A stretch of DNA of 60,787 nucleotides from Limnobacter sp. MED105 (GTDB taxonomy: Bacteria > Pseudomonadota > Gammaproteobacteria > Burkholderiales > Burkholderiaceae_B). A model generated the notes under the pieces. That model was given only the letters and a program-made list of their open reading frames with translations. It was not told the DNA's origin and did no database searches. The stretch covers positions 1-60,787 of the forward strand of contig NZ_ABCT01000016.1 of the NCBI RefSeq assembly GCF_000170915.1, read 5' to 3'. Position 1 is the stretch's first letter. Every line of letters begins with the position of its first letter. Below are positions 2,580-33,943 of the stretch, piece after piece. The position numbers and the translations under genes were made by a program.

Positions 2580-4271
2580 TTACTGCTCAATCACCACTGG
2601 CTTTTTAAGTGCAACCCAGCCTTCGGCCTTGGGCAAGTAGTGTTGTTCAATCACGTTGCGCTTGATTTTCATGGTGGGGGTCAAGAAGCCGTTTTCCATG
2701 GTCCACAGTTCTTTCACCACCACAATGCAGCTCAACTTTTCATGAGCCTCGAGCCGATCGTTTACTTTATGAAGCAATTCTGTCATTTCGCTTTCAACCC
2801 GTGCCGCTTCATTGGGGTTTTGCTCCACTTGTTTGTGTTCTTCAAGGGGCAACATAACCAATGCAAAAGGTTGTGAAAACGAGGGGCCTGTAACACACAC
2901 AGCCTCGATCAATTCATGGCCATTCAAGCGGTTTTCAATAGGCACAGGCGCAATGTATTTGCCCTTGCTGGTTTTGAACAATTCTTTCACGCGGCCCGTA
3001 ATTTTCAAGCGGCCTTGCTCGTCGATCACGCCCATGTCGCCGGTTTTCAGAAAACCGTCAGCGGTGTAAGACTCTGCGGTGAGCTCGGGGTTTTTGTAAT
3101 AGCCCATCATGTTGCAGGGGCTTTTAACCAGAACCTCGCCCACTTCGGAAATTTTGCATTCCACGCCGGGGTAGGTGTTGCCCACATAGCCCACGCGCAC
3201 TTTGCCGGGCAGGCTGCAATGGGAGTAAGCGAAGTTCTCGCTCATGGCGTAGCCTTCGAGCAAATCAAGCCCCAGGTTGCGGTACCAAGACATCAGGGCC
3301 GGGGCCAAGGGTGCAGAACCGCTCAGCGCCATGCGCACTTCTGACAGGCCCAGTTTTTTCAGCAAAAACTTTTTGAACAAACCGGAAAGAATGGGAATGC
3401 GGAAAATAATATGCTGCACACCCAGCGGAATTTTTCCGCAAATGCCGTTGTAAAACTTGGTCCACAAACGGGGTACCGAGAAAAACAGGGTTGGCCGTGC
3501 GCGTTGCAAGTCTTGAATAAAACTGTCGAGCCCGAACGAGAAGTACACATGAAAGCCATAGAACAGCGAGCCGGTTTCGAGAATGGCGCGTTCTGCGGCG
3601 TGGGCCAGCGGCAGGTAGGAAATCATGCGGTCGGTGTTGCTGAAGCTCATCACCTTGGAGGTACCGCGCAGTGCGCTGATCATGGCGTTGAACGAGATCA
3701 TCACGCCCTTGGGCTTGCCGGTACTGCCCGAGGTGTACAGCATGGTGGCCATTTCATCTTTGCTGCGCTTGACCGGCTTCTGCGTGGGCGCAGTGGCGGC
3801 CACAATGTCGTCCCATTTTTTGGCGTGTTTTAATTCAGGTGCCAAGGGCAAAGTGATGGTGGGCATGCTGGTGGGAATGCCCTTCTCAACCACGCGCCAC
3901 AGCTCATCCATCTTGCCGATGAAAATCATTTTTGAGTCGCTGTTGTCGAGCACGTATTCAGCAGTTTCAGCGTTCAGTGTGGGGTACAAGGGAATGGACA
4001 CATGCCCTGCCCGCCAAATGGCCAGGTCGGCCATGATCCAGTGTGCGCTGTTCTTGCCCAAAATACCGATGTGGGTTTTTTCGGGCAGGTTGAGCGACTG
4101 CAAATAAGCCGCCATGCGGTTCACTTGGTCGGCCACCTGGGCCCAGGTGTAATCCACTGTTTTCTCGGCCGAAAAAGGCTGTGTGAAGTAAACCTTGTTG
4201 GGTTGTGTGGCTGCCCAATGGTCCAGGCAATCCAGCAGGGTTTCGAATTTTTCGTACTGCGCTGCGCTCAT
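2580..4271 (-). CDS. Long-chain acyl-CoA ligase (AMP-forming)
   Basis: This enzyme activates fatty acids to acyl-CoA through an acyl-adenylate. Of its 563 aa, the ANL signature is clear: the P-loop YTSGSTGKPKG near residue 178, the motif EGYAMSEN, the hinge region TGDMG..D..GRLKITGRVKELFKTSKGKYI, and a C-terminal domain with the expected lysine region (TPTMKIKR). Length and the KELFKTSKGKYIAP motif fit the long-chain (FadD15/FACL) branch. GGGAG stands 8 nt before the ATG. It lies beside the beta-oxidation and alkane genes, where it would activate fatty acids made from alkanes or lipids. The chain length preferred is inferred. Confidence 0.9.
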   Translation of the reverse strand: MSAAQYEKFETLLDCLDHWAATQPNKVYFTQPFSAEKTVDYTWAQVADQVNRMAAYLQSLNLPEKTHIGILGKNSAHWIMADLAIWRAGHVSIPLYPTLNAETAEYVLDNSDSKMIFIGKMDELWRVVEKGIPTSMPTITLPLAPELKHAKKWDDIVAATAPTQKPVKRSKDEMATMLYTSGSTGKPKGVMISFNAMISALRGTSKVMSFSNTDRMISYLPLAHAAERAILETGSLFYGFHVYFSFGLDSFIQDLQRARPTLFFSVPRLWTKFYNGICGKIPLGVQHIIFRIPILSGLFKKFLLKKLGLSEVRMALSGSAPLAPALMSWYRNLGLDLLEGYAMSENFAYSHCSLPGKVRVGYVGNTYPGVECKISEVGEVLVKSPCNMMGYYKNPELTAESYTADGFLKTGDMGVIDEQGRLKITGRVKELFKTSKGKYIAPVPIENRLNGHELIEAVCVTGPSFSQPFALVMLPLEEHKQVEQNPNEAARVESEMTELLHKVNDRLEAHEKLSCIVVVKELWTMENGFLTPTMKIKRNVIEQHYLPKAEGWVALKKPVVIEQ

Positions 4272-4725: not shown

Positions 4726-6021
4726 CTAGTTCAAAGCCCCCTTGTTTTCCAGCAGTATGGCGGCGCCCAAGCCGCCCCCTGCACAGCTGGACACCACGGC
4801 GTAACGCTTGTTCTCCACCTGCAACCTGCGGGCTGCCGTGGTGAGTAAGCGAATGCCTGTGGCCGCAAACGGATTGCCCAGGGAAAGCGAACCACCCCAA
4901 GTGTTCAGTTTGTTCATGGGCAATTCGCCGGGAACCGCACCGCCATAGTACTCACCCGCAAATTCGCTACGCTGCATGCAAGCGATGTTCACCAACACTT
5001 GGGCTGCAAAAGCCTCGTGTAGTTCCCACACATCGATGTCGGCCATGCTCAACTTGTTTCTAGCCAACAATGCTGGAATGGACACGGCTGGCCCCAACAA
5101 CATTTCTTCTTCCAGGTTTTTCACAGCGGCCAGTTGATAATCCACCACCTCGGCCAGGGGCTGTAAACCCATGTCGTTTGCGGCTTCCAGGCTGGTGACC
5201 AGCAAGGCGGCTGAACCATCGGTAAAACGCGATGAACCCGCGGCGGTGATGACACCTTCTTTTCGGAAAATAGTGCGCATGGTCGACAGCTTCTGGATAT
5301 TACTGTCCTTGCGGGGTGTGTTATCCAATGTAATGGGGTGTTTGAAACCGGGCACCTGAACCGGAATGATGGTGCCCTCCAAGTAGCCTTTGTTCAGTGC
5401 CTCAATGGCCAGCTGGTGGCTGCGCACGGTGAAGGCGTCGCAGTCTTCACGACTTACCTTGAACTTTTGCACCATTTGTTCGGCGCACACGCCCATGGTT
5501 TTGCGGGTGGTGAAGTCGGTGCCGGTGGGCATCTCGGGTTTCAAGTCGGCCGGGCGCAAGCTGGCCAGGTTTTTCAGTATGTTTTTCGCGGAAGAATCTT
5601 GCCGCACTTTCATGGCGGCACGGCGAATTTTTTGCGAGTAGCGAATGGGAATGTCGGAAAAGCTTTCCACACCCGCTGCAATGCCCACATCGATTCGGCC
5701 CAAGGCGATCATGTCGCACAAATTGGCAAAGCCCACGCTGGCCGACAAACCGGCCATGGAGGTGGTGTAGGCGGGAATGGTGGCGGGCAAGCCAGCACTC
5801 AACATGCTTTCACGCGCCACGTTCGAGGTTTCAATTTCATGCAGCACGGTACCCATGGTCACCATGTTCACGCGGTTTGCATCAACACCAGTCTTGTTGA
5901 CCAAACCGGCAATGGCTTTGCCACCCAATTCATAGGTCATAAGCTGCGAATATGCACCACCTGAATCCAGAAAAGGTGTGCGCACGCCATCGACAATTAC
6001 GGCTTTTCGAATCGACTTCAT
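4726..6021 (-). CDS. FadI-type thiolase homologue lacking the active-site Cys
   Basis: This 431-aa protein has thiolase architecture close to the beta subunit of trifunctional protein (FadI/HADHB type): VDGVRTPF at the start, GVESFSDIPIRYSQK, WELHEAFAAQ (His335) and SSCAGGGLG (Cys413). The nucleophile loop reads AYTTSMAGLSAS, with Gly91 where HADHB has the Cys of HTVTMACISAN. The second catalytic motif reads LGNPFAATG, with Asn383 replacing the His of GHPFGATG. Ordinary thiolysis is therefore doubtful. Its ATG overlaps the stop of the upstream maoC-like gene by 4 nt, so the two are probably made together. It may be a repurposed or non-catalytic thiolase; an aldolase-like role is speculative. 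Confidence 0.85.
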   Translation of the reverse strand: MKSIRKAVIVDGVRTPFLDSGGAYSQLMTYELGGKAIAGLVNKTGVDANRVNMVTMGTVLHEIETSNVARESMLSAGLPATIPAYTTSMAGLSASVGFANLCDMIALGRIDVGIAAGVESFSDIPIRYSQKIRRAAMKVRQDSSAKNILKNLASLRPADLKPEMPTGTDFTTRKTMGVCAEQMVQKFKVSREDCDAFTVRSHQLAIEALNKGYLEGTIIPVQVPGFKHPITLDNTPRKDSNIQKLSTMRTIFRKEGVITAAGSSRFTDGSAALLVTSLEAANDMGLQPLAEVVDYQLAAVKNLEEEMLLGPAVSIPALLARNKLSMADIDVWELHEAFAAQVLVNIACMQRSEFAGEYYGGAVPGELPMNKLNTWGGSLSLGNPFAATGIRLLTTAARRLQVENKRYAVVSSCAGGGLGAAILLENKGALN

Positions 6022-6899
6022 TTGAAGCGCCCCACCATGTGCAAGATGCCATCAGCGGAGGCCAAACGCAGCTGTGTGTAACCTTCAGAATCGGGCGTGG
6101 TGCTGGTTTGTACCTGCATGCCGGCATGGGGCAAAGGCAGTGGTTTGATCCAGCGCACATCAAGATCGGCCACCGTGTGGCCTGCGTTGTGCAGCACTTC
6201 CCAGGTGCGGGCCAATTGCCCGAAGCCATGCAAAATACAGCTTTTAAAACGCGTGCGTTTGCCCAGAGCCTTAATGGTGTGAATGGGATTGAAGTCGCCC
6301 GTCAGCATGGCAAACGCCAGGCCATCTTCTTCCTCGGCATTCCAGTGCCCTGCGGTGGTGAATTCAAATTCATCGCGCTTGGCGGGTTTGCTTTTGCCTG
6401 CTGGTTTACCACGGGGTACGGTGGAGTAACTGTCGATGACCACCGCCAATTCACCCTTGGGGTTGCTGGCCTGCACGCGGGTGTGAATGCGCACTTTGTC
6501 GCCATCATCAGTCACGTCCATCAAACTGCCGCGCAGGGCGATTGACTCGCCACGATTCAGTGGCGTGTGAATTTGCATGCGCAAACCCTGATTCAACAGC
6601 GACAACAAATTGTAAGGCGCAAGGCTGCCCAACTTGGCCAGCATGGGCATGGCCCAGTGGCTGCAAAAATGTGCAGGCATTTCTGTGCGGTAGCGATTAG
6701 CGGGTGCACCGGTCCAGGCCACGTATTGGTCCAGCAATTCATCGTTCAGCGCGGGCACATGCATGCTGTGGTGCACAGGCAGTTGCGGCAAGGTACCGGG
6801 CCGGGTCATGGGCGTTGCATTGCGAATGGCCGCCCAACCCATGGATCGAATGTTGGGCCAGTGCAAGGCCAGGTATTTCAATGGATAGTCTGCCAACAT
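6018..6899 (-). CDS. MaoC-like enoyl-CoA hydratase (double hotdog)
   Basis: The 293-aa product fits a double-hotdog hydratase. The C-terminal hotdog carries a canonical hydratase-2 motif, AFAMLTGDFNPIHT, with catalytic Asp202 and His207. The N-terminal half (about 40-160) is the degenerate, substrate-accommodating hotdog. Such enzymes add water to trans-2-enoyl-CoA to give (R)-3-hydroxyacyl-CoA, or the reverse. It follows the acyl-CoA dehydrogenase by 22 nt and overlaps the thiolase-like gene by 4 nt. The alternative start codons are weaker than this ATG, which has AGGAA upstream. The family is firm; substrate unknown. Confidence 0.85.
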   Translation of the reverse strand: MLADYPLKYLALHWPNIRSMGWAAIRNATPMTRPGTLPQLPVHHSMHVPALNDELLDQYVAWTGAPANRYRTEMPAHFCSHWAMPMLAKLGSLAPYNLLSLLNQGLRMQIHTPLNRGESIALRGSLMDVTDDGDKVRIHTRVQASNPKGELAVVIDSYSTVPRGKPAGKSKPAKRDEFEFTTAGHWNAEEEDGLAFAMLTGDFNPIHTIKALGKRTRFKSCILHGFGQLARTWEVLHNAGHTVADLDVRWIKPLPLPHAGMQVQTSTTPDSEGYTQLRLASADGILHMVGRFK

Positions 6900-6921: not shown

Positions 6922-8064
6922 TTACAAGCCCAACTGCTTGCCGATAATTTCATTCATGATTTCGTAGGTGCCACCGCCGATCGATGCAATTCGATTGTCG
7001 CGGTACAAACGCTCCACCAAACTTTCTCGCATGAAGCCCATGCCCCCAAAAATTTGCACGGCTTCATAGGTGATGAAATCGGATGTTTTGGTGGCGAAGT
7101 TTTTGGCCATCGACACTTCTTTCAGCGCAGGTTTACCCGCTTGCATGCGGGCTGCAACCCGGTAAGTGAATTCCCGACTGGCTTCCAGCTGTGTGGCCAT
7201 GTCGGCCAGTTTGTGGCGAATCACCTGGTGCTTGCTCAGGGGTTTTCCAAAAGTGCTGCGGTTCTTGGCGTAATTCAAGGCCTCGTTGAATGCCAATTCA
7301 GACAGCGTGTTGGCGTAGCAAGCCAGGCCCAAACGCTCGGCCTCGAAGTTGGTCATGATCATCATGAAGCCGCCGTTTTCAATGCCAATCAAATTCGATT
7401 TTGGCACCACCACGTTGTCGAAGAAAAGTTCGGCGGTGTCGCTGCACCACCAACCCATTTTTTTCAAAGGCTGGCCTGTGGTAAAGCCGGGCATGCCCTT
7501 TTCCATCAGCAACATGCTGATGCCGCCATAGCCATCGCCACCAGTGCGCACGGCCACGGTGTAGTAGTCGGCACGAATGCCTGAGGTAATGTAGGTTTTG
7601 GAACCTGACACTTTGTAGTGGTCGCCACAATCAACAGCGCGGGTTTTCAGGTTGGCGACATCGGACCCACCACCGGGCTCGGTCACTGCCAGCGCAATGA
7701 TTTTTTCACCACGCAGCACGGGCGGCACAATGCGTTCTTTCATCTCGGGGCTGGCCCACTTTGCAATGGGTGGCAGTGCAATGCCATGCGACATCAGGCT
7801 GGAGAAAAAACCACCGGAACCCGCACGCAACAATTCTTCCGTGGCCACCAGGCTCATGAAGTAGTCGCCTTCGGAATTGCCACCAAATTCCTCCGGGTAG
7901 CCAATACCCAGAATGCCGGCATCGCCAGCCAGATTAAATATTTCCCGGGGGAAAGTGCTCGCCTCTTCCCATTCATTGATGTTGGGTTGAATGTGTCGCT
8001 CGACGAAGCGGCGAATGTTGCGGCGTGCTTCGTCGTGGGTTTCATTGAAGTAAGAAGTGAACAT
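6922..8064 (-). CDS. Acyl-CoA dehydrogenase
   Basis: This FAD flavoenzyme would oxidise acyl-CoA to trans-2-enoyl-CoA. The 380-aa sequence has the signatures ALAVTEPGGGSD (126-135) and QIFGGMGFM..YRDNRI near the C-terminus. The usual MCAD Glu position reads IGGGT (362-366). A Glu in ANFEAERLGLA (Glu243) matches the alternative catalytic base of isovaleryl- and long-chain acyl-CoA dehydrogenases, so the enzyme should be active. It lies 10 nt after the esterase gene and before maoC, on one minus-strand run. The electron acceptor would be ETF, not encoded here. Length is normal. Confidence 0.93.
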   Translation of the reverse strand: MFTSYFNETHDEARRNIRRFVERHIQPNINEWEEASTFPREIFNLAGDAGILGIGYPEEFGGNSEGDYFMSLVATEELLRAGSGGFFSSLMSHGIALPPIAKWASPEMKERIVPPVLRGEKIIALAVTEPGGGSDVANLKTRAVDCGDHYKVSGSKTYITSGIRADYYTVAVRTGGDGYGGISMLLMEKGMPGFTTGQPLKKMGWWCSDTAELFFDNVVVPKSNLIGIENGGFMMIMTNFEAERLGLACYANTLSELAFNEALNYAKNRSTFGKPLSKHQVIRHKLADMATQLEASREFTYRVAARMQAGKPALKEVSMAKNFATKTSDFITYEAVQIFGGMGFMRESLVERLYRDNRIASIGGGTYEIMNEIIGKQLGL

Positions 8065-8073
8065 GCGAAGACC

Positions 8074-9054
8074 TTACAGTGGTGACGACAGTTGTCGAAT
8101 TCGATTCTGGAAACAAGGGGGGCGGCGAACCTCGCCATGGCCAAGCCACGCGGAGGCGGCTGCGAAAGCGGCACGACCTTCGGGCATGGTGGGAGAAAAC
8201 AAAATGAAATCGTGAAACACGCCCGACCACACATCCACATAGCACTCGGTGCCCAGCGCCTGGGCCTGTTTCATCAAGCGCAGGCTGTCGACCATGAACA
8301 CCTCATTGGCCGAGCACTGCACATACACCGGCGGCAAACGGGACAAATCGCCCAACAGCGGCGAGATCAAGGGGTTTTCCGGATCATGCACGCTGGCATA
8401 GGGCGTGGCAAACATGCGTTTGAGCCAATCACGGGCTTTGGCTTCGTTGTGGCCCAGGAAGGCATCTACCACTTCGGGGCGCAAATCGCTTTCGCCCAAG
8501 GAAGGATCAAGCCAGGGCGAGCTGAGGTAAACACGGGAAGGCAAGCGAAGTTCACTGGCATTCATGGCGTGGCATAGCGCAAGGCTTAAATTGCCGCCTG
8601 CGGAATCGCCTGCCAGCAGCAATTCATTCTGGCCGTGTTCCTGCAGCAGGGCTTTCCACACCTCAACAACATCGTTCAAACCCGCCGGGAAAGGGGCTTT
8701 GCCCATGAGGGTGTAATCGGGTACCCAGGCGCGGGCAATGCCCGATTTTTTGCAAAGGCGTGCAACAAAGGCCCGGTAATTGGCAGCGCTGCCAAACGCA
8801 AAACCACCGCCATGCAAAAACAGCAGGGTTTGACTGGTGTTGGCGTGTGCGCTGTGGTTCTCGATAATTTCCACCGGTACGCCATTGACTGTGCGGTGCT
8901 GCACGGTGCAACCCGCTGGCATTCGGGACAGTTTTTGCAACAGGTTGGTAACGCGCTCGCCAACCCGCCACACCTTTTCAGGATTGCGGGCTGCCAGCAA
9001 ACGCCCTTGGCACAGGCGCAGGAACAGGGTGACGGATTTGGACATGGAGCTCAT
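8074..9054 (-). CDS. Alpha/beta hydrolase, hormone-sensitive-lipase family
   Basis: The product has the HSL/GDXG esterase hallmarks: HGGGFAFGS (oxyanion hole), GDSAGGN (nucleophile Ser), and a late VFHDF with the catalytic His. These enzymes cleave carboxyl esters of short to medium acyl chains. The frame extends upstream to a GTG at 9105, but the ATG at 9054 (or at 9045) gives a more usual N-terminus; the start is uncertain. The final ~20 residues are basic and unusual. It sits between an AraC regulator and the acyl-CoA dehydrogenase, so it may release acids or alcohols from esters for the pathway. Confidence 0.85.
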   Translation of the reverse strand: MSSMSKSVTLFLRLCQGRLLAARNPEKVWRVGERVTNLLQKLSRMPAGCTVQHRTVNGVPVEIIENHSAHANTSQTLLFLHGGGFAFGSAANYRAFVARLCKKSGIARAWVPDYTLMGKAPFPAGLNDVVEVWKALLQEHGQNELLLAGDSAGGNLSLALCHAMNASELRLPSRVYLSSPWLDPSLGESDLRPEVVDAFLGHNEAKARDWLKRMFATPYASVHDPENPLISPLLGDLSRLPPVYVQCSANEVFMVDSLRLMKQAQALGTECYVDVWSGVFHDFILFSPTMPEGRAAFAAASAWLGHGEVRRPPCFQNRIRQLSSPL

Positions 9055-9132
9055 GCAAACATCTTGTTGCATGCATGCTGTTTGGCCTAGGGCAAAGCCG
9101 GACACAATGGGGGTAAATAGCGACAGGCTGTC

Positions 9133-12206
<3,074 letters not shown>

Positions 12207-12289: not shown

Positions 12290-13324
12290 TTACGATGCAT
12301 GTTGGTGACGATAATCCTTCGGGGTTTGGCCACACCAGCGTTTGAATGTTCGGCTGAAATTCGATGCATCTTCGTAACCCAGCGCATAAGCAATGGCTTC
12401 AACGGTGGAATCGGTGTGGGCCAGCATCCAGCAGGCGCGTTCTTGCCGCACTTCATCCAGCAATTGTTGAAAACTGGTGCCCTCGGCCTGCAGGTGGCGC
12501 ATGAAAGTGCGTTCAGTGAGGTTTTCCTTGGCGGCCATGGCTTGCAAGGTGGGCATGTGGCCTTCGCTTTGCTGCAACTGCATGCGCACGCGCTGGGCCA
12601 GTGTGCCGCCCGCTTGCAGGCGTTGCAGCTGCAAATCACAATCGCGAAGCAAACGTTGCAAGGCTTCATCATCAGCCGCCAGGCTGGGGCTGTTCACCAA
12701 GGTGCTACCCAACACCACACGCAACTGCGAAAAACCAAAGCTGTTGTGTTGCGCAATGCGCTGATATTCATGCGCCCATGCCGGTGCGTCGAAAGGCCAT
12801 TCAATTTTCAGCTGTTGCGGCAGTTCTTGCCCGGTCATCGCGGTGAGCAATTGCACCAAGCCACCCAACAATTGGCAGTGGAGGTATTCACGCACAGGGC
12901 CCAAATCGACCCATTCCTCCAGCACAGCGGCAAACTCGGGTTCATGCTCAAACTTCAGATTGGCCAGGTTTTGGCGCAAGCCGGCGTAGCGTTGCAACAG
13001 CAACATGGCACTGGGCAAATTTTTGCTGGCGATCATGGCGGCGCCCAAGGTACCGTGGGCCGAGGCAGGCGTGCGCAAGCCCACTTCCAGCCCCAACCAG
13101 GGGCAGTCGCTGAGTTGTACGCCACGCTCAATCAACTGGCGCATTTGATCGAAACTCAGGAACTGGTTGCTTTCATGAAGTTGCTGCCAGCTCAGTGGCA
13201 AGCCTTCCAGAATTTCGCCCGGCGCAAATCCACGGCGCTGCAATTCGGCACACAGCAAACGTGCGTACACCGGGTGCAAAGCAGGCTTCAAGGCCGCGAC
13301 TGAATCGTGCAAGTGTTGGGGCAA
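12290..13324 (-). CDS. AraC-family regulator divergent from alkB (AlkR-like)
   Basis: The 344-aa product has an N-terminal ligand-sensing domain (about 15-215) and a C-terminal AraC HTH domain (ALGYEDASNFSRTFKRWCGQTPKDYR). The start is TTG, with GAGACA a few nt upstream; no ATG lies nearby. It is transcribed away from alkB across a 133-nt gap. AraC/XylS-type activators such as AlkR control alkane monooxygenase genes in other bacteria, so an alkane-responsive activator of alkB is a reasonable inference. It is not strongly similar to the other AraC protein here outside the DNA-binding domain. Confidence 0.87.
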   Translation of the reverse strand: MPQHLHDSVAALKPALHPVYARLLCAELQRRGFAPGEILEGLPLSWQQLHESNQFLSFDQMRQLIERGVQLSDCPWLGLEVGLRTPASAHGTLGAAMIASKNLPSAMLLLQRYAGLRQNLANLKFEHEPEFAAVLEEWVDLGPVREYLHCQLLGGLVQLLTAMTGQELPQQLKIEWPFDAPAWAHEYQRIAQHNSFGFSQLRVVLGSTLVNSPSLAADDEALQRLLRDCDLQLQRLQAGGTLAQRVRMQLQQSEGHMPTLQAMAAKENLTERTFMRHLQAEGTSFQQLLDEVRQERACWMLAHTDSTVEAIAYALGYEDASNFSRTFKRWCGQTPKDYRHQHAS

Positions 13325-13457: not shown

Positions 13458-14618
13458 ATGACTTCCAATACCCTGCCCGCTACACAATACAAAGACCCAA
13501 AAAAATACATGTGGCTGTTGTCGGTGATCGCGCCTTTTGCTGCGCCACTTGGCCCGATCATGTATTTGTACACTGGCCACACCCAATGGCTGTGGATCTT
13601 TCTGGCCTTCTTCTACATCGGCCTGCCCGTGCTTGATTTCGTGTTTGGCGAAGACAAGCAAAACCCGCCCGAGCAAGCGGTGCCCCAACTGGAAAACACC
13701 GCCTACTACCGTGTGATTACCTACCTGTTGGTGCCGATTATCACGTTCGGATTTTTGTTCAACGTTATCTTCCTGGCCACGCACGACTTGCATTGGCTGC
13801 ACTGGCTGGCTGTGGCCATTACCACCGGCTCACTGCTGGGTTTTGGTTTGAACCTGGGCCATGAAATGGGCCACAAAAAACGCAAGCTCGACAAGGCATT
13901 GGCGCTGTTTACCCTCTCGCTGGGTGGTTATGGTCACTTCTCGATTGAACACAACCGCGGCCACCATCGCGATGTGGCCACACCCGAAGATCCGGCCACT
14001 TCACGTATGGGTGAACACATTTATGAATTCATGCTGCGTGAAATTCCGGGTGCTTTCAAACGTGCCTGGAGGCTCGAAAGTGAACGCCTGGAACGCGCAG
14101 GAAAAAGCCGCTGGAGTGTGGGCAATGAAATGTTACAAGCCGGTGCAATGACCCTGGTGCTGTACTCGGCGCTGCTTGCCCTGTTTGGCTGGCCCATGGT
14201 GCCCGTGTTGGCTGTAGTGGCCTTCTGGGGTGCATTTCAGCTAACCAGTGCCAACTACATTGAGCACTACGGTTTGATGCGCCAGAAGTTGCCCAATGGC
14301 GAATACGAGCGTTGTGCCCCACACCATTCCTGGAACAGCAACCATTTGGTGTCCAACCTGGTGGTGTTTCAGTTGCAGCGCCATTCAGACCACCACGCAA
14401 ACCCGGCACGCAGCTACCAGTCGCTTCGTGATTTTCCGGAACTGCCAAGCTTGCCATCGGGCTATTTCGGCATGTTCTTGATCGCGTATGTGCCACCGCT
14501 GTGGTTTGCAATCATGAATCCACGGTTGCTGGACGTGGCGGGCAAGAATGCGCAGAAAATCAACATTCACCCACGCAAACGCGCACGTGTGATTCAGCGT
14601 TATTCGCTGGCCGCGTGA
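13458..14618 (+). CDS. alkB: Alkane 1-monooxygenase
   Basis: This integral-membrane di-iron enzyme hydroxylates n-alkanes at the terminal carbon, using electrons from rubredoxin. All His boxes are present in 386 aa: HEMGH (135-139), EHNRGHH (164-170), the NYIEHYG motif (266-272) and LQRHSDHH (306-313). About six hydrophobic segments lie in the first 260 residues. There is no rubredoxin fusion at the C-terminus, and no rubredoxin gene in the window, so the electron chain is encoded elsewhere. It is divergent from an AraC gene and convergent with a thioesterase; the adjacent GMC oxidoreductase would be the next pathway step. Confidence 0.95.
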   Translation: MTSNTLPATQYKDPKKYMWLLSVIAPFAAPLGPIMYLYTGHTQWLWIFLAFFYIGLPVLDFVFGEDKQNPPEQAVPQLENTAYYRVITYLLVPIITFGFLFNVIFLATHDLHWLHWLAVAITTGSLLGFGLNLGHEMGHKKRKLDKALALFTLSLGGYGHFSIEHNRGHHRDVATPEDPATSRMGEHIYEFMLREIPGAFKRAWRLESERLERAGKSRWSVGNEMLQAGAMTLVLYSALLALFGWPMVPVLAVVAFWGAFQLTSANYIEHYGLMRQKLPNGEYERCAPHHSWNSNHLVSNLVVFQLQRHSDHHANPARSYQSLRDFPELPSLPSGYFGMFLIAYVPPLWFAIMNPRLLDVAGKNAQKINIHPRKRARVIQRYSLAA

Positions 14619-15093: not shown

Positions 15094-16772
15094 TTACACC
15101 GGTTGTGGAACGAGGGCTTGGGTCAGGTGTTCCTGACGGGCCCGTGCGTTGTGTTCGGCCTGTTCAAGTGCAGGCACGCGCGACACGCCACGAATCAAAT
15201 CTACCGCTTTTTCAGCCATCATCATGACCGGGCCGTTGGTGTTGCCGCCAATCAGGCTGGGCATTGCAGACGCGTCCACAATACGCAGGCCTTCCAGCCC
15301 GTGCACACGCAGTTGCGGATCGACCACAGCCATGGAATCGGTGCCCATTTTGCACGTGCCGGTGGGGTGATAAACCGTGTCAACCCTGTTGCGCAACACT
15401 TCACGAATTTCGTCATCGGTGCGCACATGCTCGGTGAATTTGTCTTTCAAAATCCACTTGGCCAAGGCAGGCGCATGCATAATCTTTCGGGTCAATTTGA
15501 AGCCCTCCACCAGCTCATCCAGATCACGAGGATCTTTCAAAAACCAATGTCAATCAAGGGTGGCGTGTCCATGGTGTTGCCTTGCAGGGTAAGGCTTCCG
15601 CGGCTGCGCGGGCGCAACAAACACACGTGGCAGGAAAAACCGTGGCCCATGTGCATTTTGCGGGCGTGGTCATCCACCATCGCCACCACGAAGTGCAATT
15701 GAACGTTGGGGTCTTTCAACTCGGGGCTGGTTTTTAGAAACGCACCACCTTCAGCGAAGTTGCTGGTGAGCGCACCACGGCGATGCTTGCGGTAGCGGAA
15801 AATTTCACGCAGCAAACGAATACCACCGCGAATGGACAAACCCAGTGTGTCCAGGCTTTTGGTGGAATAACCAAAAATAAAGTCGGGGTGATCCTGCAGG
15901 TTTTTACCCACGCCGGGTAAGTGATGAACCACATCGATATCATGACGTGCCAACTCTGAAGAGTCGCCCACACCGGAAACCATCAACAATTGCGGCGTTT
16001 GAATGGCACCCGCAGTCAATATGATTTCTTTGCGCGCCTTCAACACAGTGACCTGGCCGTTGATGGACACCTCCACACCCACCGCACGCTTGCCTTCAAA
16101 CAGCACGCGTTGAACCATCGCCTTGGTGTGAACCGTGAGGTTTTTTCGGTGCATGTGCGGAAACAGGTAGGCGCGCGCAGCACTGAAGCGTTCACCATTT
16201 TTTTGGGTCACCTGGTAAATGCCAACGCCTTCCTGATCGGCACCGTTGAAATCATCAGTGATCTTGAAACCAGCTTGCTTGCCAGCCTCCAGATAAATTT
16301 GCTGAAAGGGATTGTCGGAACGCAAATCGGCCACATTCAACGGGCCGCTGTTGCCGTGGTAGGCGTCGCGAATTCGCTCGTTGCATTCACTGAGTTTGAA
16401 ATAAGGCAGCACGTCTTTGTAAGACCAGCCGCTGCACCCCTCTTCATTGGCCCAACGGTCGTAGTCCGATGCCGTGCCACGAATGTAAACCATGGCATTG
16501 ATGGCCGAGGAACCACCCAAGGCCTTGCCACGCGGCTGGTAACCCTTGCGACCGTTCAAGCCGGGTTGCGGTGTAGTTTCGAATGCCCAGTTGTTGATTT
16601 TGGTGGGCAACATGGCCACCGCACCGCTGGGAATATTGATCAGATTACCGGTGCCATCGCCCCCGGCTTCGAGAAGGCATACATCGAGTGCTGAGTCTTC
16701 ACTGAGGCGGCCTGCCATGGCACAACCGCCGGAACCACCACCCACCACAATGTAGTCGTGCTCTGTCTTCAT
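15094..16772 (-). pseudogene. GMC-family alcohol dehydrogenase (AlkJ-like), split by a 1-nt frameshift
   Basis: Two reading frames make one GMC flavoenzyme of about 559 aa. The N-terminal part (15537-16772, 411 aa) has the FAD motif VVGGGSGG and GMC signature RGKALGGSSAINAMVYIRG. It stops at ..PPLIDIGF. The C-terminal part (15094-15540, 148 aa) begins [16 protein letters not shown] and has [10 protein letters not shown] with the catalytic His plus the closing [17 protein letters not shown] motif. Adding one base to the A5 run at 15539-15543 (T5 on the coding strand) joins them exactly. AGGAGGAGC precedes the ATG. Related enzymes oxidise alkanols to aldehydes, as AlkJ does. It may be a true mutation, a sequencing error, or two coupled pieces (TTGA overlap). 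Confidence 0.88.
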
Positions 16773-16890
16773 CTGCTCCTCCTGATTTTCAAACCCGCTT
16801 GGATCGGATTTTGTGATTTTCTCACTTGATCATAGAGGAAGCCGGGCAAAAAGAAACACCCCAAAGCGCACAAAAAATTGATAATTCCGG

Positions 16891-17979
16891 TCAAGCGATG
16901 CGGGTGATCTTCTCGGGTGCAGCGGGCGCACTGCTCTGTGCATTTCCAACCAACTGATTCACTTGCCCCAAAGCTTCCTGTACTTCTCGCATTACACGTT
17001 GGGTCAGTTCTTCCACGGTGGGTACGTCTTGCACCAGGCCTTGAACCTGACCAATCAGCTGAACACCTTGTGTGTGGTTGCCCTCAATGGTGGCTTTTTT
17101 GATTTGAAGCACTGCGGCTCCGTAAAAAGTGACTGTGAGCGTTTGCTCCAGACCCATTTTGAATACGTCTTTGATGATTCCCGAAAGGGGCTTGTTCATT
17201 TCACGCGCAGCCAGGTAGGCGCGCCACATGGCACGAACCGGATTGAATGGCTTCGACATGATTTTTTTGGAGTTGGGTGTGGTCATGACACGGCAAGGAA
17301 TGCTGTCGAAATTCTTGCTGTAAATGGTGTCTTCCACTTCTTTTTTTACAATCAATTCTTTGGTGTTGGCATGCACCGGGCTTTCTTTCGATGCGGCCCA
17401 GCGTGTGCCCATGGCCACGCCGTCTGCGCCCAAAGCCAAGGCCGCGACCACACCGCCGCCTGTGCCAAAACCACCGGCTGCAATAATTGGAAGCTTGGTT
17501 ACCTGCCGGATTGCAGGCACCAGCACCAGTGATGTAACTGCGCCGCCGTGCGCTGCGGCCTCATGGCCTGTGACCAACAAGGCATCCGCGCCCGACTGCT
17601 CGGCCTTCAAGGCATGCTTGGCATTCACCACAGTCACAATGACTTTGCCGCCATAGTCGTGCACACGCTTGCAAACATCTGCGGGGCTACCGAGGCTGAA
17701 GTTGATCACGGGTACTTTTTCATTCAGGGCCACTTCAAGATTTTCACGGGCACCCGGCATGATCAATGCGCAACCAATGCCGAAAGGCTTGCTGGTCAGG
17801 CTTCGAACCTTGCGAATTTCAGAGAGGGTTTGTTCAGGCGTCAAATGCCCAATGGCCAGAATGCCCAGACCACCTGCGTTGGCTGTGGCAGCCACCAGAT
17901 CGGCATTGGCCACGTAGGTCATGCCGGGGCATACCAGCGGGTATTGAATGTTGAACATCTCGGTGATGCGGGTTTTCAT
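16891..17979 (-). CDS. NAD(P)H-dependent flavin oxidoreductase / nitronate monooxygenase family
   Basis: The 362-aa TIM-barrel FMN enzyme begins MKTRITEMFNIQYPLVCPGM and shows the family features AGGLGILA, DALLVTGHEAAAHGG and PIIAAGGFGTGGGVVAALALGADGVAMGTRW. The frame extends to a TTG at 18015, but the ATG at 17979 gives the standard family N-terminus. Many such proteins are annotated as nitronate monooxygenase, though this clade (motif TGHEAAAHGG) includes NADH:quinone and enoyl-type reductases. It stands alone after the GMC gene. The true substrate is unknown. Confidence 0.85.
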   Translation of the reverse strand: MKTRITEMFNIQYPLVCPGMTYVANADLVAATANAGGLGILAIGHLTPEQTLSEIRKVRSLTSKPFGIGCALIMPGARENLEVALNEKVPVINFSLGSPADVCKRVHDYGGKVIVTVVNAKHALKAEQSGADALLVTGHEAAAHGGAVTSLVLVPAIRQVTKLPIIAAGGFGTGGGVVAALALGADGVAMGTRWAASKESPVHANTKELIVKKEVEDTIYSKNFDSIPCRVMTTPNSKKIMSKPFNPVRAMWRAYLAAREMNKPLSGIIKDVFKMGLEQTLTVTFYGAAVLQIKKATIEGNHTQGVQLIGQVQGLVQDVPTVEELTQRVMREVQEALGQVNQLVGNAQSSAPAAPEKITRIA

Positions 17980-18079
17980 GGGCTGTCCGTAGATCGAGTG
18001 GGCCGGATCGGGCAATCCAATGAATATTACATCAACCGAGATATTCTGATAAGCACTGTAAGTATGCGCTGAGTTGCTT

Positions 18080-19567
18080 TTATCCCAGTGTCTTGGTCAG
18101 GTCACCCAACAATGGCAAGCCTCCGAGCAAGCCACCCTCGGCACCGCTGGTCGAACTGATGGAGGAAGTCAAACCACCCAACACGTCGCCAAGCACTGGA
18201 ATACCCGCCAAGGCATCACCACCGGAAAGCAAACCGCCGCCGCCTAGCCCACCGGTCAAGCTGTCCAGCGCACCGCCGAGGAATGGAATGTTGCCTAATG
18301 CAGAACTGACATCGCCACCCAAAGAACCGGCAAGATCGCCAATCAAGTCGGTGACTGGCGCTGCGGGTGTGCTTGCGCCCACCGACGATATTGCGTCGCC
18401 CACCCCGCCCAACAAACCGCCAACGGTGTTCAGCAAAGTGTTGCCGCCCTCGCCAATCAAAGCCAAAGGCGTGTCAGCAAGACCGCTTTCCAGCCCGCCA
18501 CCCAAACCGCTCAGAATTCCACCCAAGCCACCGTCGTTGTTACCCGTGGCCACTGAATCCACAACGCCACCCAAGGTACCGGCAATGTCGCCCAGCACGG
18601 GCACCGGTGCCAGCAATTGCCCCACGCTGTCGGTGACATTCACCACGGTGCCTACCACGCCACCCACACCACCATCGGTGTTCGGGCCTGTGGTTCCCAA
18701 CAGGCTCGCCACCAAATCCGACACGGGTGCCAGCGGTGTACCTTCACCAAATCCACTCACTTGGTTTGCTGCCACACCGAGCAGGTCAGTCAATGTACCC
18801 AGCCCCATGTCCAACACATTGGCCACAGGTGCCAAAGGGGTACCCTCCAGTCCGCTGGTCAGGCCATCGGTCAAGCCCGTCAAAATGCCATTCAAGCCAC
18901 CGTTGTTGTCGCCCACCAATGTGGATTCGATCACGTTGCCCACGGCGTCGACCACATCGCCCACCACGGGCACGGGCTCGGTCAATTCGCCAAGGTTGTT
19001 GGTAAGGTCACTGACTGTTTCAGCCAGGCCGCCCGCATTTTCTGCAGGCAATGCGCCGGGATTTCCACCACCGCTGCTACCGCCGCCATTGTTGTCGTCT
19101 GAACCTGCGAACACCGCCGCTGCGCCCACGGCGCCTGCCAATGGCAAAGCTCCCAAGCCCGCACCGGCGCCCAGCAAGCCTGCACCAAACAGGCCACTCA
19201 TTTCCCCCGTGGCTTCCTGACCATCCAGTACGGCTGCCTGGTTTTCTCCGTCAAATTCAGACACCAGCGTGACATTGCCCAAGCCATCACCCGCGTTGGA
19301 GGTAATGACCACCTGACCGTTGGGGCCAGCATCTGGATCGAAACCCAGCGTGGCCACACCACCATTTGAAATTTCAAGGAAAGCGGGGATTTGTTGCTGT
19401 GTACCCGGAATACTAAGCACTGCAATTGAGTTGCTGGTGGAGCGCAACACATCACCTGCCTGCAACACCATGTCTTCGCGTAGCGGAGTTTCAATGCCGT
19501 TTCGCTTCACAAACACATCGCCATCAATATTGGTCACAGAGGCTACTACTGGGCTGTCAAAGTTCAT
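18080..19567 (-). CDS. Gly/Leu-rich repeat protein with retention-module-like N-terminus
   Basis: No family is recognised for the whole 495-aa protein. Residues 8-75 (SVTNIDGDVFVKRNG..TPLREDMVLQAGDVL) resemble the FecR-like beta module at the N-terminus of LapA-type surface adhesins. A Gly/Ala-rich hydrophobic segment (125-154) and an Asp-Asn-Gly linker follow. Residues 195-430 hold two copies of a ~110-residue repeat, each starting (E/A)PVPV(V/L)GD and containing NN(G/D)GGL.GIL.GL and a TP.AP element; partial units run to the end. There is no signal peptide and no RTX nonapeptide. AAGGAA precedes the ATG. It follows its partner gene by 15 nt, so the two form an operon. It may be surface-exposed; function unknown. 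Confidence 0.75.
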   Translation of the reverse strand: MNFDSPVVASVTNIDGDVFVKRNGIETPLREDMVLQAGDVLRSTSNSIAVLSIPGTQQQIPAFLEISNGGVATLGFDPDAGPNGQVVITSNAGDGLGNVTLVSEFDGENQAAVLDGQEATGEMSGLFGAGLLGAGAGLGALPLAGAVGAAAVFAGSDDNNGGGSSGGGNPGALPAENAGGLAETVSDLTNNLGELTEPVPVVGDVVDAVGNVIESTLVGDNNGGLNGILTGLTDGLTSGLEGTPLAPVANVLDMGLGTLTDLLGVAANQVSGFGEGTPLAPVSDLVASLLGTTGPNTDGGVGGVVGTVVNVTDSVGQLLAPVPVLGDIAGTLGGVVDSVATGNNDGGLGGILSGLGGGLESGLADTPLALIGEGGNTLLNTVGGLLGGVGDAISSVGASTPAAPVTDLIGDLAGSLGGDVSSALGNIPFLGGALDSLTGGLGGGGLLSGGDALAGIPVLGDVLGGLTSSISSTSGAEGGLLGGLPLLGDLTKTLG

Positions 19568-19582
19568 GATGTTTTCCTTGAA

Positions 19583-20800
19583 TCAAGCAAAGTCAGCGTT
19601 TTGAACCACGATGGATTCAGCAAATGCTGCGGAGGAGTTAATGGGAGAGGAGGACTGAGAGAAATCGGTGAAGTCTGTCGGGGAAATTGCGGCTGTGGCA
19701 GCATCAAACTGACTGTTCATGCCGAATAACGAAAGATCAATTTGCGTGATTTGCGACACAATGCTGTTGAACAAATCGGCGGGAATGACCGTGGAGGCCA
19801 GTGACAGATCCGTGCTGTTCATACCAGGCAAAGTGTCCATGCTTTCCAGCGAACCGGAAAACTGTTCCAGGCCGGGAAATGCATCCGCCGCCTCGCCCAA
19901 ACTTGCGGTGAGATCGTTCAACAAGCCTGACACCGGGTCGGTACCAGCATCACCGGCCAACAAGGTGGTGGTGGTTCCACCCACCACGCCGCCCAACAAA
20001 TCGCCTAGGCCGCCGAGTACGGGTATATCGGCCAAACCATCTTTGATTGCATCGCCGAGAAAGGCCAAACCATCGGCCAGCCCACCGGGCAAGGGGATCA
20101 AATCGCCCTGACCGCTGCCGAGCAGATCAGTCAAACCATCAATCAAAATTCCCAAACCGGGAATGTCGCCCAAACTGCTGTCCAGGGTGTCCGCAACATC
20201 GGCAAGCAAGCCGGCAAGCCCGGTCAGCTCGGTGGTACTCACTGGCGGATCAACCGGGTCAGTAGGATCGGTGGGATCGGTGGGATCGGTAGGGTCGGTC
20301 GGCATTGCCGGGCTGCCAGTATCCACAACTTCATCGTCGTCGCCGTCCAGCACAGCAGCACCCAGCACACCGGCACCAATAACGCCCGCTGCTGTACTGG
20401 CTGATGCACCGCCAGCCAACAAGCCAGCACCGACAAGGCCAGAGAATTCTCCGTCCTGCGAAGCCAGAACAGCGGTATTGACCGCGTCACTCACTTCGTA
20501 AAGTTCCACGCCTTCGCTCAGCGCCGTGACTTCAGTACGGGCGGGCGCATCAGGCACATCGGCCTCAAGCATATCCAGCCTGGCCGATGCATTCGGCGCC
20601 AGTTCAAGCAAGGCATCACCGTGGCTTGCGTGCAATGCAGGCATTTCTACCTGCACGACCTGACGGCTATTGTTCACAATCGTGTCGTCCCAAAACACGG
20701 GGTCGCCGGGCTCCAGTGTCAAGGTTTGACCCATCCGCTGCACGGTTACACCGACAGCCTGCGTTTTCAAAATGCCCACCGAGGCCATTTCGTTCGACAT
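19583..20800 (-). CDS. Partner of the Gly/Leu-rich protein, with TAAG motif and Thr-Asp-Pro repeats
   Basis: The 405-aa protein is a diverged relative of the next gene. Its N-terminal beta module (6-75) contains VGVTVQRMGQTLTLEPGDPVFWDDTI. A hydrophobic Gly/Ala segment (120-151) is of the same kind as in the neighbour, here containing STAAGVIGAG with TAAG at 136-139; TAAG is the site cleaved by LapG in LapA-type adhesins. A TDP repeat linker (168-182) and a Gly/Leu-rich body (190-310) follow, and the last 90 residues are Ser/Asp-rich. No signal peptide or RTX repeats are seen. It has AAGGAA before the ATG and is first in a two-gene operon. The function is unknown; a cell-surface role is inferred. 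Confidence 0.75.
   Translation of the reverse strand: MSNEMASVGILKTQAVGVTVQRMGQTLTLEPGDPVFWDDTIVNNSRQVVQVEMPALHASHGDALLELAPNASARLDMLEADVPDAPARTEVTALSEGVELYEVSDAVNTAVLASQDGEFSGLVGAGLLAGGASASTAAGVIGAGVLGAAVLDGDDDEVVDTGSPAMPTDPTDPTDPTDPTDPVDPPVSTTELTGLAGLLADVADTLDSSLGDIPGLGILIDGLTDLLGSGQGDLIPLPGGLADGLAFLGDAIKDGLADIPVLGGLGDLLGGVVGGTTTTLLAGDAGTDPVSGLLNDLTASLGEAADAFPGLEQFSGSLESMDTLPGMNSTDLSLASTVIPADLFNSIVSQITQIDLSLFGMNSQFDAATAAISPTDFTDFSQSSSPINSSAAFAESIVVQNADFA
20256..20300 (-). repeat. Nine-base repeats encoding Thr-Asp-Pro
   Basis: Five tandem 9-nt units (GGATCGGTG-like on the plus strand) encode consecutive TDP tripeptides. Units are nearly identical, so copy number could vary by slippage and change linker length in steps of three residues. 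Confidence 0.8.
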
Positions 20801-23814: not shown

Positions 23815-25137
23815 ATGACTACAATTGAATTAAAGCAACCCTTCACCCTGCCCTGCGGCGTGGTGGTTCCCAACCGGCTTTGCAAAGCAGCCATGACCGA
23901 AGGTGTGGCCAACGCAAGGCTTCAAGCCACTGAACGCCATGCCACACTGTACAAGCGTTGGGCCGAGGGCGGTGCGGGCATTTTGATCACCGGCAATGTG
24001 TTGATCGACCGGAATATTCTGGAAAGACCCGGCAATGTATCCATAGACCCAGCACCCGAGCATGGCGAGCCCGAAGGCATGGAGGCCCTGCGTGCATGGG
24101 CCAAAGCAGGCACCAGCAACGGCAACCACCTGTGGATGCAAATTTCACATGCAGGCCGACAGTCGCCCCGCTATGTCACCACCAAACCAGTGGGACCTTC
24201 TGCAGTTCAACTGGAATTGCTGGGCAACTACGCCCCACCCCGCGCCCTGCGCGAGGATGAAATTCTGGACCTGATTCAGCGCTTTGCGCGTGTGGCCCGA
24301 ATTGCAAAAGAAGCCGGTTTTACGGGCGTGCAGGTGCATGGAGCACATGGTTATCTGCTGTCGTCTTTCCTGTCGCCAGTGACCAATCAGCGCACGGACC
24401 AATGGGGCGGCAGCCTGGAAAACCGCGCCCGCTTTTTGCTGGAGGCCGTGCGTGCCGTGCGCAAGGCCGTTGGCCCTGCTTTCCCGGTTGCAGTGAAACT
24501 GAATTCAGATGATTTCCGCAAAGGCGGGTTTTCCAATGAAGAATGTCTGCAAGTGGTGAAGTGGTTGAATGACGAAAAAATCGACCTGCTGGAAATTTCG
24601 GGCGGCACCTATGAGCAGCCCCGTTTGCTGGGCCACACGGGTGCAGCAGACTCGGTGAAAGACGATCAACCCGATGTACGTGAAAGCACGAAGAAACGCG
24701 AAGCGTATTTTTTGAATTATGCCAAAGCAATTCGCGAAGTGGCCACCATGCCACTGATGGTGACAGGTGGTTTTCGCAGCCGTGAAGCGATGGAAGAAGC
24801 GATGAACGAAGGCGTGTGCGATGTGATTGGCCTGGGTCGCCCTTTGTGCACCCACCCTGACACACCGAAGCAATTAATGAACGGAAAAATTGACCGTGCA
24901 GCCAGCTTTGAGAATATGTTGAAGTTGGCAGACAAGGGAATTTTTTCACCGGTCAGCCCAGTGCTGCCACTGAAATTAATCAACGTGCTGGGTGCACAAG
25001 CCTGGTATTACCAACAAATTTTCCGTTTGGCAGATGGGTTGGAAGCCAAACCTTCCATGAGCTTGATCGGCGCCTTCTTCAAATATTTGTTCAATGAATG
25101 GACAACGGCATTTCGGGTAAAACGCGCCACACGCTAG
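23815..25137 (+). CDS. NADH:flavin oxidoreductase, Old Yellow Enzyme family
   Basis: The 440-aa FMN-dependent TIM-barrel protein carries OYE motifs: NRLCKAAMTEG near the start, MQISHAGRQS, VQVHGAHGYLLSSFLSP.TNQRTDQWGGSLENRARFLLE, and GFRSREAMEEAMNEGVCDVIGLGRPL. Family members reduce activated alkenes, or act in dienoyl-CoA or terpenoid metabolism. The C-terminal extension (about 380-440) is longer than in YqjM-type enzymes and may hold membrane-contact helices. It follows the TetR and membrane-protein genes. Its stop overlaps the stop of the opposite gene in a shared CTAG. Confidence 0.9.
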   Translation: MTTIELKQPFTLPCGVVVPNRLCKAAMTEGVANARLQATERHATLYKRWAEGGAGILITGNVLIDRNILERPGNVSIDPAPEHGEPEGMEALRAWAKAGTSNGNHLWMQISHAGRQSPRYVTTKPVGPSAVQLELLGNYAPPRALREDEILDLIQRFARVARIAKEAGFTGVQVHGAHGYLLSSFLSPVTNQRTDQWGGSLENRARFLLEAVRAVRKAVGPAFPVAVKLNSDDFRKGGFSNEECLQVVKWLNDEKIDLLEISGGTYEQPRLLGHTGAADSVKDDQPDVRESTKKREAYFLNYAKAIREVATMPLMVTGGFRSREAMEEAMNEGVCDVIGLGRPLCTHPDTPKQLMNGKIDRAASFENMLKLADKGIFSPVSPVLPLKLINVLGAQAWYYQQIFRLADGLEAKPSMSLIGAFFKYLFNEWTTAFRVKRATR

Positions 25138-32773: not shown

Positions 32774-33943
32774 ATGACACGCACGCCCATTCCCCGCTTC
32801 GAAGACAACTATTCCGAGGAAGCCGCCAAAGCACGTCGCGAATTTTTGACGCAGCACACCGGTGCCAGCCTTCAACACACTGGCACCTACTCCCTGCCCC
32901 CAGAAAGTTTGAAAAGCAACACCGAGAACTTCATTGGCGTGGTGCAAATGCCGGTGGGTGTGGCTGGGCCTGTGTTGATTCATGGTGAACATGCGCAGGG
33001 CTGGTTCTATGTGCCACTGGCCACCACCGAAGGCACACTGGTGGCCAGCTACAGCCGGGGCATGCGCATGGTGAGCGAATCCGGCGGTGTGAAGGTGACT
33101 GTGGCTGAAGAATTCATGCAGCGCGCCCCGCTGTTTGAATTCGAAGATGCCCGAGCCGCCAAACGGTTTTTGAACTGGTTGAATGAGAACCTTCAAACAG
33201 TGAAAGCCGAGGCTGAGAAAACCACCGGCTTTGGCAAGCTTGAGCACATTCAAACCTGGCAGGTTGCGCGCATGGTGTACACGCGCTTTAACTACACCAC
33301 GGGCGACGCGGCTGGGCAAAACATGTGTGGCAAGGCCACCCATGCCGCTTGCCAATGGGTGCTGAAAAACAGCCCTGAAGCAATTACTTACTTTGCCCTG
33401 AGCGGTGCCATTGAAACCGACAAAAAGCATTCGCACATGAACTTGCTGCACAGCCGGGGCAAGCGGGTGATTGCGGAAGCCACCATTCAGCGTGAAGTGC
33501 TGCAAAGGCTGGCACGCACCACACCTGAAACAATTTTCAAGCAGCGCCAGCGCAGTGCCATCGGCGCGCAACTGGCGGGCAGCGCCTACAGTGGGCCCCA
33601 CTCGGCCAACGGCATTGCCGCGTTGTTCATTGCCACCGGGCAAGACGAGGCCAATGTAGTTGAAAGCCACACCGGCATGGTGTTCATGGACATTACCGCC
33701 GATGGGGATTTGTATTTTTCTGTCACATTGCCTTCCGTGATTTGTGCCACCAAGGGCGGCGGAACCGGCCTGTCCACCCAAGCAGAATGCCTGAGAATGC
33801 TCGGCTGCGAAGGCAGCGGCAAGGCACGCAAACTGGCGGAGATTGTGGGTGCCACGGTGTTGGCGGGCGATTTGTCTTTGTTGTCGGCCATTCTGGCGGA
33901 TGAGTGGGTTTCTTCCCACGACGCTTACGGCAGAAACCGCTAG
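32774..33943 (+). CDS. HMG-CoA reductase, class I-like
   Basis: The 389-aa protein keeps the class I landmarks: ENFIGVVQMPVGVAGP (51-66), TTEGTLVAS with catalytic Glu86, TGDAAGQNM (177-184), ETDKKHS with Lys217, ATGQDEAN with Asp291, ATKGGGTGLSTQ (325-336), and a C-terminal SSHDAYGRNR with His382. All four catalytic residues are thus present. The family converts HMG-CoA to mevalonate with two NADPH. No mevalonate kinase or HMG-CoA synthase gene is here, and most proteobacteria use the MEP route. It follows the coiled-coil gene by 1 nt and precedes a reductase-desaturase pair. The physiological direction and substrate are open. Confidence 0.88.
   Translation: MTRTPIPRFEDNYSEEAAKARREFLTQHTGASLQHTGTYSLPPESLKSNTENFIGVVQMPVGVAGPVLIHGEHAQGWFYVPLATTEGTLVASYSRGMRMVSESGGVKVTVAEEFMQRAPLFEFEDARAAKRFLNWLNENLQTVKAEAEKTTGFGKLEHIQTWQVARMVYTRFNYTTGDAAGQNMCGKATHAACQWVLKNSPEAITYFALSGAIETDKKHSHMNLLHSRGKRVIAEATIQREVLQRLARTTPETIFKQRQRSAIGAQLAGSAYSGPHSANGIAALFIATGQDEANVVESHTGMVFMDITADGDLYFSVTLPSVICATKGGGTGLSTQAECLRMLGCEGSGKARKLAEIVGATVLAGDLSLLSAILADEWVSSHDAYGRNR

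Follow-up and report, generated by a model that had tools for sequence, protein, structure and literature searches.

A Cys-less HADHB-type thiolase encoded beside a MaoC-type hydratase in Limnobacter: a proposed 3-hydroxyacyl-CoA aldolase

The window (the whole stretch of Limnobacter DNA that was analysed, 60,787 nt) encodes a thiolase of the HADHB type in which the nucleophilic Cys and the GHP His are replaced by Gly91 and Asn383. The protein is proposed to be a thiolase-fold lyase that would replace thiolysis by the retro-aldol cleavage of a 3-hydroxyacyl-CoA to acetyl-CoA and a ketone or an aldehyde. We infer this chemistry, at a probability of about one half, from the residues and the gene neighbours described below. 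The gene and its catalytic positions are the following (all codons verified and placed by alignment).

4726..6021 (-): Cys-less HADHB-type thiolase, 431 aa, proposed 3-hydroxyacyl-CoA aldolase (ORF, Pfam, alignment, tree)
5749..5751 (-): codon GGT of Gly91, nucleophilic-Cys position
5017..5019 (-): codon CAC of His335, HEAF motif, retained
4873..4875 (-): codon AAT of Asn383, GHP-His position
4783..4785 (-): codon TGT of Cys413, CAGGG, retained; candidate acid for the acetyl-CoA enolate

The ORF runs from 6021 down to 4726, with an ATG start and zero internal stops. Thiolase_N (PF00108; 1.5e-58, 199 bits) and Thiolase_C (PF02803; 1.3e-31, 109 bits) cover the full length of the 431-aa protein, the latter extending to residue 425, and the protein is thereby assigned by its sequence to the thiolase-superfamily fold. 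Thiolase_C_1, which we take to be the model of SCP2-type thiolases, reaches just 29 bits (cut-off 28). The top solved relatives are human HADHB (6dv2 and 5zqz; E ~1e-96), then FadI (8bnu, 8bnr) and FadA2 (7xly). In the HMMER alignment with human HADHB (6dv2, 1.4e-96), both motifs are aligned without a gap: TMACISAN of HADHB corresponds to SMAGLSAS of the Limnobacter protein, and LGHPFGATG to LGNPFAATG. Gly91 therefore takes the place of the nucleophilic Cys and Asn383 that of the GHP His, and a misalignment of Gly91 is ruled out. An earlier reading, made from the sequence only, had placed Gly91 of AYTTSMAGLSAS and Asn383 of LGNPFAATG at these two sites, and had also stated that the HEAF His and the C-terminal Cys are retained; all four assignments hold, the last two being His335 and Cys413. 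The strand, which that reading left unstated, is the minus strand. Among the residues that define a thiolase, the nucleophilic Cys and the oxyanion-hole His of GHP are absent and the acid/base Cys of CxG is present, each in 26/26 rows of the family. The active site is read from sequence alone; AlphaFold2 gave a mean pLDDT of 33 from the single sequence and of 44 from an 11-row alignment of the Limnobacter group. The NCBIfam model TIGR01930 (acetyl-CoA C-acyltransferase) is passed with 362 bits (cut-off 240.55). The FadI equivalogs NF006516 and TIGR02446 score below their cut-offs (354.5 vs 560 and 292.6 vs 711.55).

The 26 family rows are the window gene, 11 loci of the Limnobacter group and 14 others (five families, two other orders). 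Residues were called in a multiple alignment because tblastn against distant paralogues slides by a few residues at the Gly91 motif. All 26 rows carry Gly/His/Asn/Cys. C/H/H/C is found at these positions in 19/19 HADHB/FadI/FadA2-like comparators (three solved proteins, plus 16 paralogues taken from 11 genomes that carry the family) and in 12/12 further FadI-type matches obtained from a phylum-wide sample with a laxer cut-off; the five classical thiolases of the own Limnobacter genome are all C/N/H/C. Two checks proposed by the earlier reading, an alignment with FadI/HADHB and a search for orthologues sharing Gly91 and Asn383, thus bore out the distinction: comparators have Cys and the GHP His, and the family, from the Limnobacter group and five further families, has Gly and Asn throughout. 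By tblastn, Gly and Asn were also found in 22/22 rows of the Limnobacter group (L001, L009-L029; several genomes are present twice). Left out of the 26 rows are L030 (broken gene), L001, L051, L052 and L091 (repeats of counted genes or of genome G007), L010-L016 and L019 (copies, by coordinates or identity, of genomes in L020-L029), and L009 (G007) and L017 (G009), two further genomes with a full-length gene and the same motifs.

All four Gly codons (GGT, GGC, GGG, GGA) are used in the family for Gly91 and both Asn codons (AAT, AAC) for Asn383. dN/dS is 0.039-0.145 against 11 relatives, the ratios being rough in the 7/11 pairs whose dS is >1. The Cys-less gene is under purifying selection and, as had been supposed, is not decaying. 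Sequencing error, frameshift and pseudogene are ruled out by the residues shared in 26/26 rows together with the low dN/dS.

The gene was found in 12/16 Limnobacter genomes at E 1e-100, and Limnobacter loci reach up to 95% identity; two of the four genomes without it have a completeness of just 85% and 65%. In a class-wide sample of 369 genomes (E 1e-90), the matches were the own genome and two others (~50% identity, other families); in a phylum sample of 398 genomes (E 1e-130), the own genome was the sole match. In an order-level search around one of the two other class-wide matches (order of G084; E 1e-130), 13/85 genomes carry a thiolase-like gene. The in-depth searches cover Pseudomonadota; other phyla are covered by a close-relative scan and a plasmid search. 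The latter (1e-60) matched 31 records, all with <60% identity; among the 20 plasmid matches listed, 15 bear an annotation of FadI, acetyl-CoA C-acetyltransferase or acyltransferase, while the other 5 have no feature. Among the matches listed from the open-licence PMC literature, no description of a Cys-less HADHB-type family was found, and neither the terpene papers listed nor the digA paper gave anything bearing on the Cys-less gene.

The 26 family rows form a single clade (support 100/99), which survives the removal of the classical rows and L107. HADHB is the sister of the family in a first tree (98/96) and in a second one built without these rows (99/97); neither tree includes Sal, Ltp2, TLP or SCP2 sequences. 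The branches of HADHB and of the family are long and meet at this node, as a treekit warning indicates, and the sister position is less sure than the monophyly of the family. 'HADHB-like' is a better label than the earlier 'FadI-like'.

The Cys-less gene lies in a cluster with the following members and neighbours, all on the same strand.

2580..4271 (-): AMP-forming acyl-CoA ligase, cluster member; also in L065-L069 (family searches)
6018..6899 (-): MaoC-type hydratase, 293 aa, GDFNPIH in the C-terminal half (Pfam, motif)
6922..8064 (-): acyl-CoA dehydrogenase, cluster member; a 53% identical one in the L067 and L068 clusters, from another order (family searches)
8074..9105 (-): hormone-sensitive-lipase-like (HSL-like) esterase, neighbour; no match in some relatives (family searches)
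9133..10161 (-): AraC-type regulator, neighbour; best NCBIfam match CypR, below cut-off (NCBIfam)
10158..12197 (-): old-yellow-enzyme (OYE)/FadH-type reductase, neighbour (family searches)

The MaoC gene lies upstream of the Cys-less gene, its stop overlapping the start of the latter by 4 bp, and the ligase gene lies downstream. The N-terminal half of the MaoC protein has no Pfam match; from the length of the protein it may contain a second, degenerate hotdog domain. The catalytic motif, GDFNPIH or GDFNPLH, was found in 20/20 loci examined. In a set of 36 relatives (MaoC at E 1e-10), the MaoC gene adjoins the thiolase-like gene in all 12 genomes that carry the latter, and the other 24 have neither. 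In the 85 genomes of the order of G084 (MaoC at E 1e-30), 9 have both genes, 4 the thiolase-like gene only, 0 the MaoC gene only and 72 neither (Fisher p 1.7e-9, a value that ignores shared ancestry). Outside Limnobacter, MaoC adjoins the thiolase-like gene, or is separated from it by one gene, in 10/14 loci. One of these, L068, has an HSL-like match between the two genes; in L067 and L068, the dehydrogenase, ligase, MaoC and thiolase-like genes are all on the same strand; the contig of L046 holds only the C-terminal part of MaoC. No MaoC was found near the gene in the other four loci (L069, L071, L072, L076), and their genomes have no MaoC of that type at 1e-30; the pairing is therefore not obligatory.

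L030 occupies the same place as the cluster of G001, its ligase gene being at identical contig coordinates. The AraC, esterase and ligase genes are whole; between intact neighbours, the acyl-CoA dehydrogenase gene and the thiolase-like gene survive in pieces (L030:7815-8500), apparently after several deletions, and no MaoC match was obtained in the locus. Beyond the regulator, only a short stretch of the OYE gene is left as well; the loss thus extends past the proposed unit. L030 is a metagenome-assembled genome, in which an assembly fault is possible.

Other genes of the window are given here as separate observations. A second AraC regulator (12290-13324, -) adjoins a membrane protein of the Pfam family FA_desaturase (13458-14618, +), presumably AlkB-like, whose gene lies beside the cluster in 6/14 loci of the Limnobacter group (several contigs end before that point). 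GMC oxidoreductase and nitronate-monooxygenase genes (15537-18015, -) and a second OYE-like gene (23815-25137) occur in a stretch that looks like a catabolic island. Two adjacent proteins of low complexity, rich in Gly/Ala and one of them bearing a DPT repeat, are encoded at 18080-20800 (-) and are possibly surface or secreted proteins. A full-length hydroxymethylglutaryl-CoA reductase (32774-33943, +; PF00368, 408 bits), an enzyme unusual in this bacterial group, is followed by an FAD/NAD-binding oxidoreductase and a fatty acid desaturase.

No match to a short-chain dehydrogenase (SDR; one query, 1e-6) or to a FadB-type protein (query from L069, 1e-5) was found in the whole window. With two queries at 1e-5, an SDR was found within 4.5 kb in 2/26 family loci, in neither case adjoining the thiolase-like gene: that of L046 is on the opposite strand, 2.8 kb off, and that of L029 is 3.5 kb upstream. 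Flanks are short on one side in L046, L074 and L026. A FadB-type match was found in 1/26 family loci, L069, where a FadB-type gene (3HCDH + ECH) and a classical-type thiolase gene (L069:962-4357) lie about 4.8 and 3.6 kb, respectively, from the Cys-less gene and are encoded on the other strand. In the own genome, at L108:5804-9454, a Cys-type thiolase paralogue is flanked by an SDR gene and by a gene for a different MaoC; this module is the apparent ordinary counterpart of the Cys-less cluster. The contrast between it and the absence of a dehydrogenase near the Cys-less gene is suggestive only, because most loci of Cys-type paralogues also lack such matches (8/10 without SDR within 4.5 kb, 10/10 without FadB-type). 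A dehydrogenase may also be supplied from elsewhere in the genome.

In the proposed pathway, the ligase would form the CoA ester, the acyl-CoA dehydrogenase would convert it to the 2-enoyl-CoA and MaoC would hydrate the latter. The Cys-less thiolase would then cut the C2-C3 bond directly, and the 3-hydroxyacyl-CoA dehydrogenase step would be skipped. With a fully substituted C3 (beta-methyl branch, ring carbon) that step has to be left out, since the alcohol is then tertiary and gives no 3-ketone on oxidation; the substrate is thus probably a beta-branched or bulky 3-hydroxyacyl-CoA. The presumably AlkB-like neighbour would fit branched hydrocarbons.

The thiolase mechanism, as summarised in PMC3406046, proceeds through an acyl-enzyme on Cys; without this Cys no acyl-enzyme can form and the known thiolysis route is closed. 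The enolate-forming half-site would remain once the Cys is gone. For a retro-aldol cleavage, the site would have to provide a base acting on the 3-hydroxyl, a hole that takes up the thioester enolate and an acid that protonates C2. The space left by the Cys side chain could accommodate the carbinol, Asn383 and backbone amides could hold the enolate, and Cys413 could protonate C2. His335 is a candidate base for the 3-hydroxyl because HEAF is taken to stand at the motif position of the Tyr base of Sal/Ltp2 (NEAF corresponds to YSCF, with the Tyr, in TLP1). The presumed counterpart of the YDCY/YDHF motif of Sal/Ltp2, matched by motif only, is HEAF, with His335 in 26/26 rows. In CtSal (PMC12329534), a Gly occupies the position of the thiolase nucleophilic Cys and the substrate hydroxyl contacts the backbone amide of Gly89, taken here to be that same Gly; the base is Tyr302, and Cys304 serves as the acid. 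This Cys of Sal belongs to the YDCY motif, a different one from that of Cys413, and the catalytic Tyr of Sal and Ltp2 does not coincide with His335, so that the residue parallels are partial. ChsH3, CasD and CasQ, fused two-domain MaoC hydratases that have no DUF35, act on steroid side-chain substrates (PMC11321319), with which the double-length MaoC of the cluster agrees.

A broader proposal can be put forward tentatively and is doubtful as a whole: the family would be a separate invention of an acyl-CoA aldolase in the HADHB lineage, with a double-length MaoC and no DUF35. Acetyl-CoA would then be split off beta-methyl-branched (isoprenoid-like) or bulky chains with no need of a carboxylase or of HMG-CoA lyase.

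Four other functions were weighed against retro-aldol cleavage. The tight linkage to MaoC would suit a non-catalytic partner or scaffold of the hydratase, the fold being kept just for CoA binding; the invariance of His335, Asn383 and Cys413 in 26/26 rows and the presence of the thiolase-like gene without that MaoC in 4/13 genomes of one order make this unlikely. The earlier reading had proposed either a different carbon-carbon bond reaction or a structural task; the former stands as the best reading, and the latter is the less likely for the same invariance. That the protein is a true thiolase using Cys413 or another residue as nucleophile, on a special substrate, agrees with the retention of Cys413 and with the TIGR01930 score, and is very unlikely given the replacement, in 26/26 rows, of both the Cys that is acylated and the oxyanion-hole His and given the missed cut-offs of the FadI equivalogs.

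Ketosynthase domains with a replaced Cys decarboxylate, and KAS III has a His/Asn pair which that of His335 and Asn383 resembles; the protein could therefore be a decarboxylase or a condensing-type enzyme, in which this pair would hold the thioester enolate of a malonyl-CoA-like substrate. According to PMC12329534, the SLP of T. brucei decarboxylates malonyl-CoA slowly and CtSal yielded no acetyl-CoA from it; the acyl-CoA dehydrogenase and MaoC context indicates a beta-oxidation intermediate rather than a carboxylated one, and this function is quite improbable. Equally improbable is an aldol synthase that would join acetyl-CoA to a ketone or aldehyde, MaoC then dehydrating the product and the dehydrogenase or the OYE reducing it to a branched acid. 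The same residues would serve and the reaction is reversible in principle, as a matter of general chemistry; the neighbouring ligase, esterase and hydroxylase-family genes seem to serve catabolism, and the cleavage by Ltp2 is said, in PMC11321319, to overcome the unfavourable hydration equilibrium of ChsH1-ChsH2.

If the retro-aldol function is true, the thiolase fold became an aldolase more than once, by the same Cys to Gly change in different lineages. The MaoC and thiolase-like genes would form a unit of two genes amenable to testing in E. coli. The name acetyl-CoA C-acyltransferase, which the TIGR01930 rule gives to the Cys-less protein, is probably wrong. If the branched-chain proposal is also true, a route is added for the degradation of isoprenoids or branched hydrocarbons.

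Among known systems, the protein is closest to HADHB/FadI. HADHB is its best solved match (full-length, 327 bits alone, 436 bits by profile) and its sister in both trees, and the HEAF His and CxG Cys are common to both. It differs from HADHB by Gly91 and Asn383 in 26/26 family rows instead of the Cys and GHP His, and by its gene neighbours: a FadB-type (HADHA-like) gene occurs in 1/26 family loci and not in the window, and MaoC is the usual neighbour. It differs from FadI by missing the curated NCBIfam equivalog cut-offs. A module of the type whose genes we take to be FadA2, FabG4 and HtdX also has a thiolase beside a MaoC protein, and the own genome has one (L108); its thiolase, L099, is however C/H/H/C and accompanied by an SDR, whereas no SDR match was found in the window.

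TLP1, according to PMC3406046, is like the Cys-less protein in having a Gly (Gly102) for the nucleophilic Cys, and has no thiolase activity. Unlike the latter, it has lost NEAF, GHP and CxG, has an extra C-terminal domain and shows 15% identity to the Zoogloea thiolase (same source). Membership of TLP1 is ruled out by the HEAF and CxG motifs kept in the Limnobacter protein and by a Thiolase_C match that reaches residue 425 of 431.

Sal/Ltp2 share with the Cys-less protein the replacement of Cys by Gly (described for Sal in PMC12329534) and the association with MaoC: both act after a MaoC-family hydratase, Shy being the MaoC hydratase that acts just before Sal (PMC11321319), and the Limnobacter cluster has a MaoC partner. 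Sal/Ltp2 are kin of SCP2-type thiolases and bind a DUF35 domain, whereas the Limnobacter protein is of the HADHB type by Pfam and by its sister position in the trees, which were built without Sal, Ltp2 and SCP2; its candidate acid is Cys413 of CxG rather than the YDCY Cys of Sal, and His335 is taken to stand at the motif position of their Tyr base. DUF35 (PF01796) has no match at 0.001 in the own genome (96% complete); as a control, the model matches in 6/14 genomes, 5 of them above the cut-off. Membership of Sal/Ltp2 is rejected on the HADHB-type placement together with the lack of a DUF35 match in the own genome. Whether the protein belongs to the TLP or Ltp2 groups had been asked by the earlier reading; Pfam scores, the grouping with HADHB and the kept HEAF and CxG place it, as far as sequence allows, in neither. 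By these comparisons, the Cys-less HADHB-type family appears distinct from thiolases, two of whose defining residues it lacks, from Sal/Ltp2 and from TLP1, and its members most likely work like Sal while belonging to another lineage.
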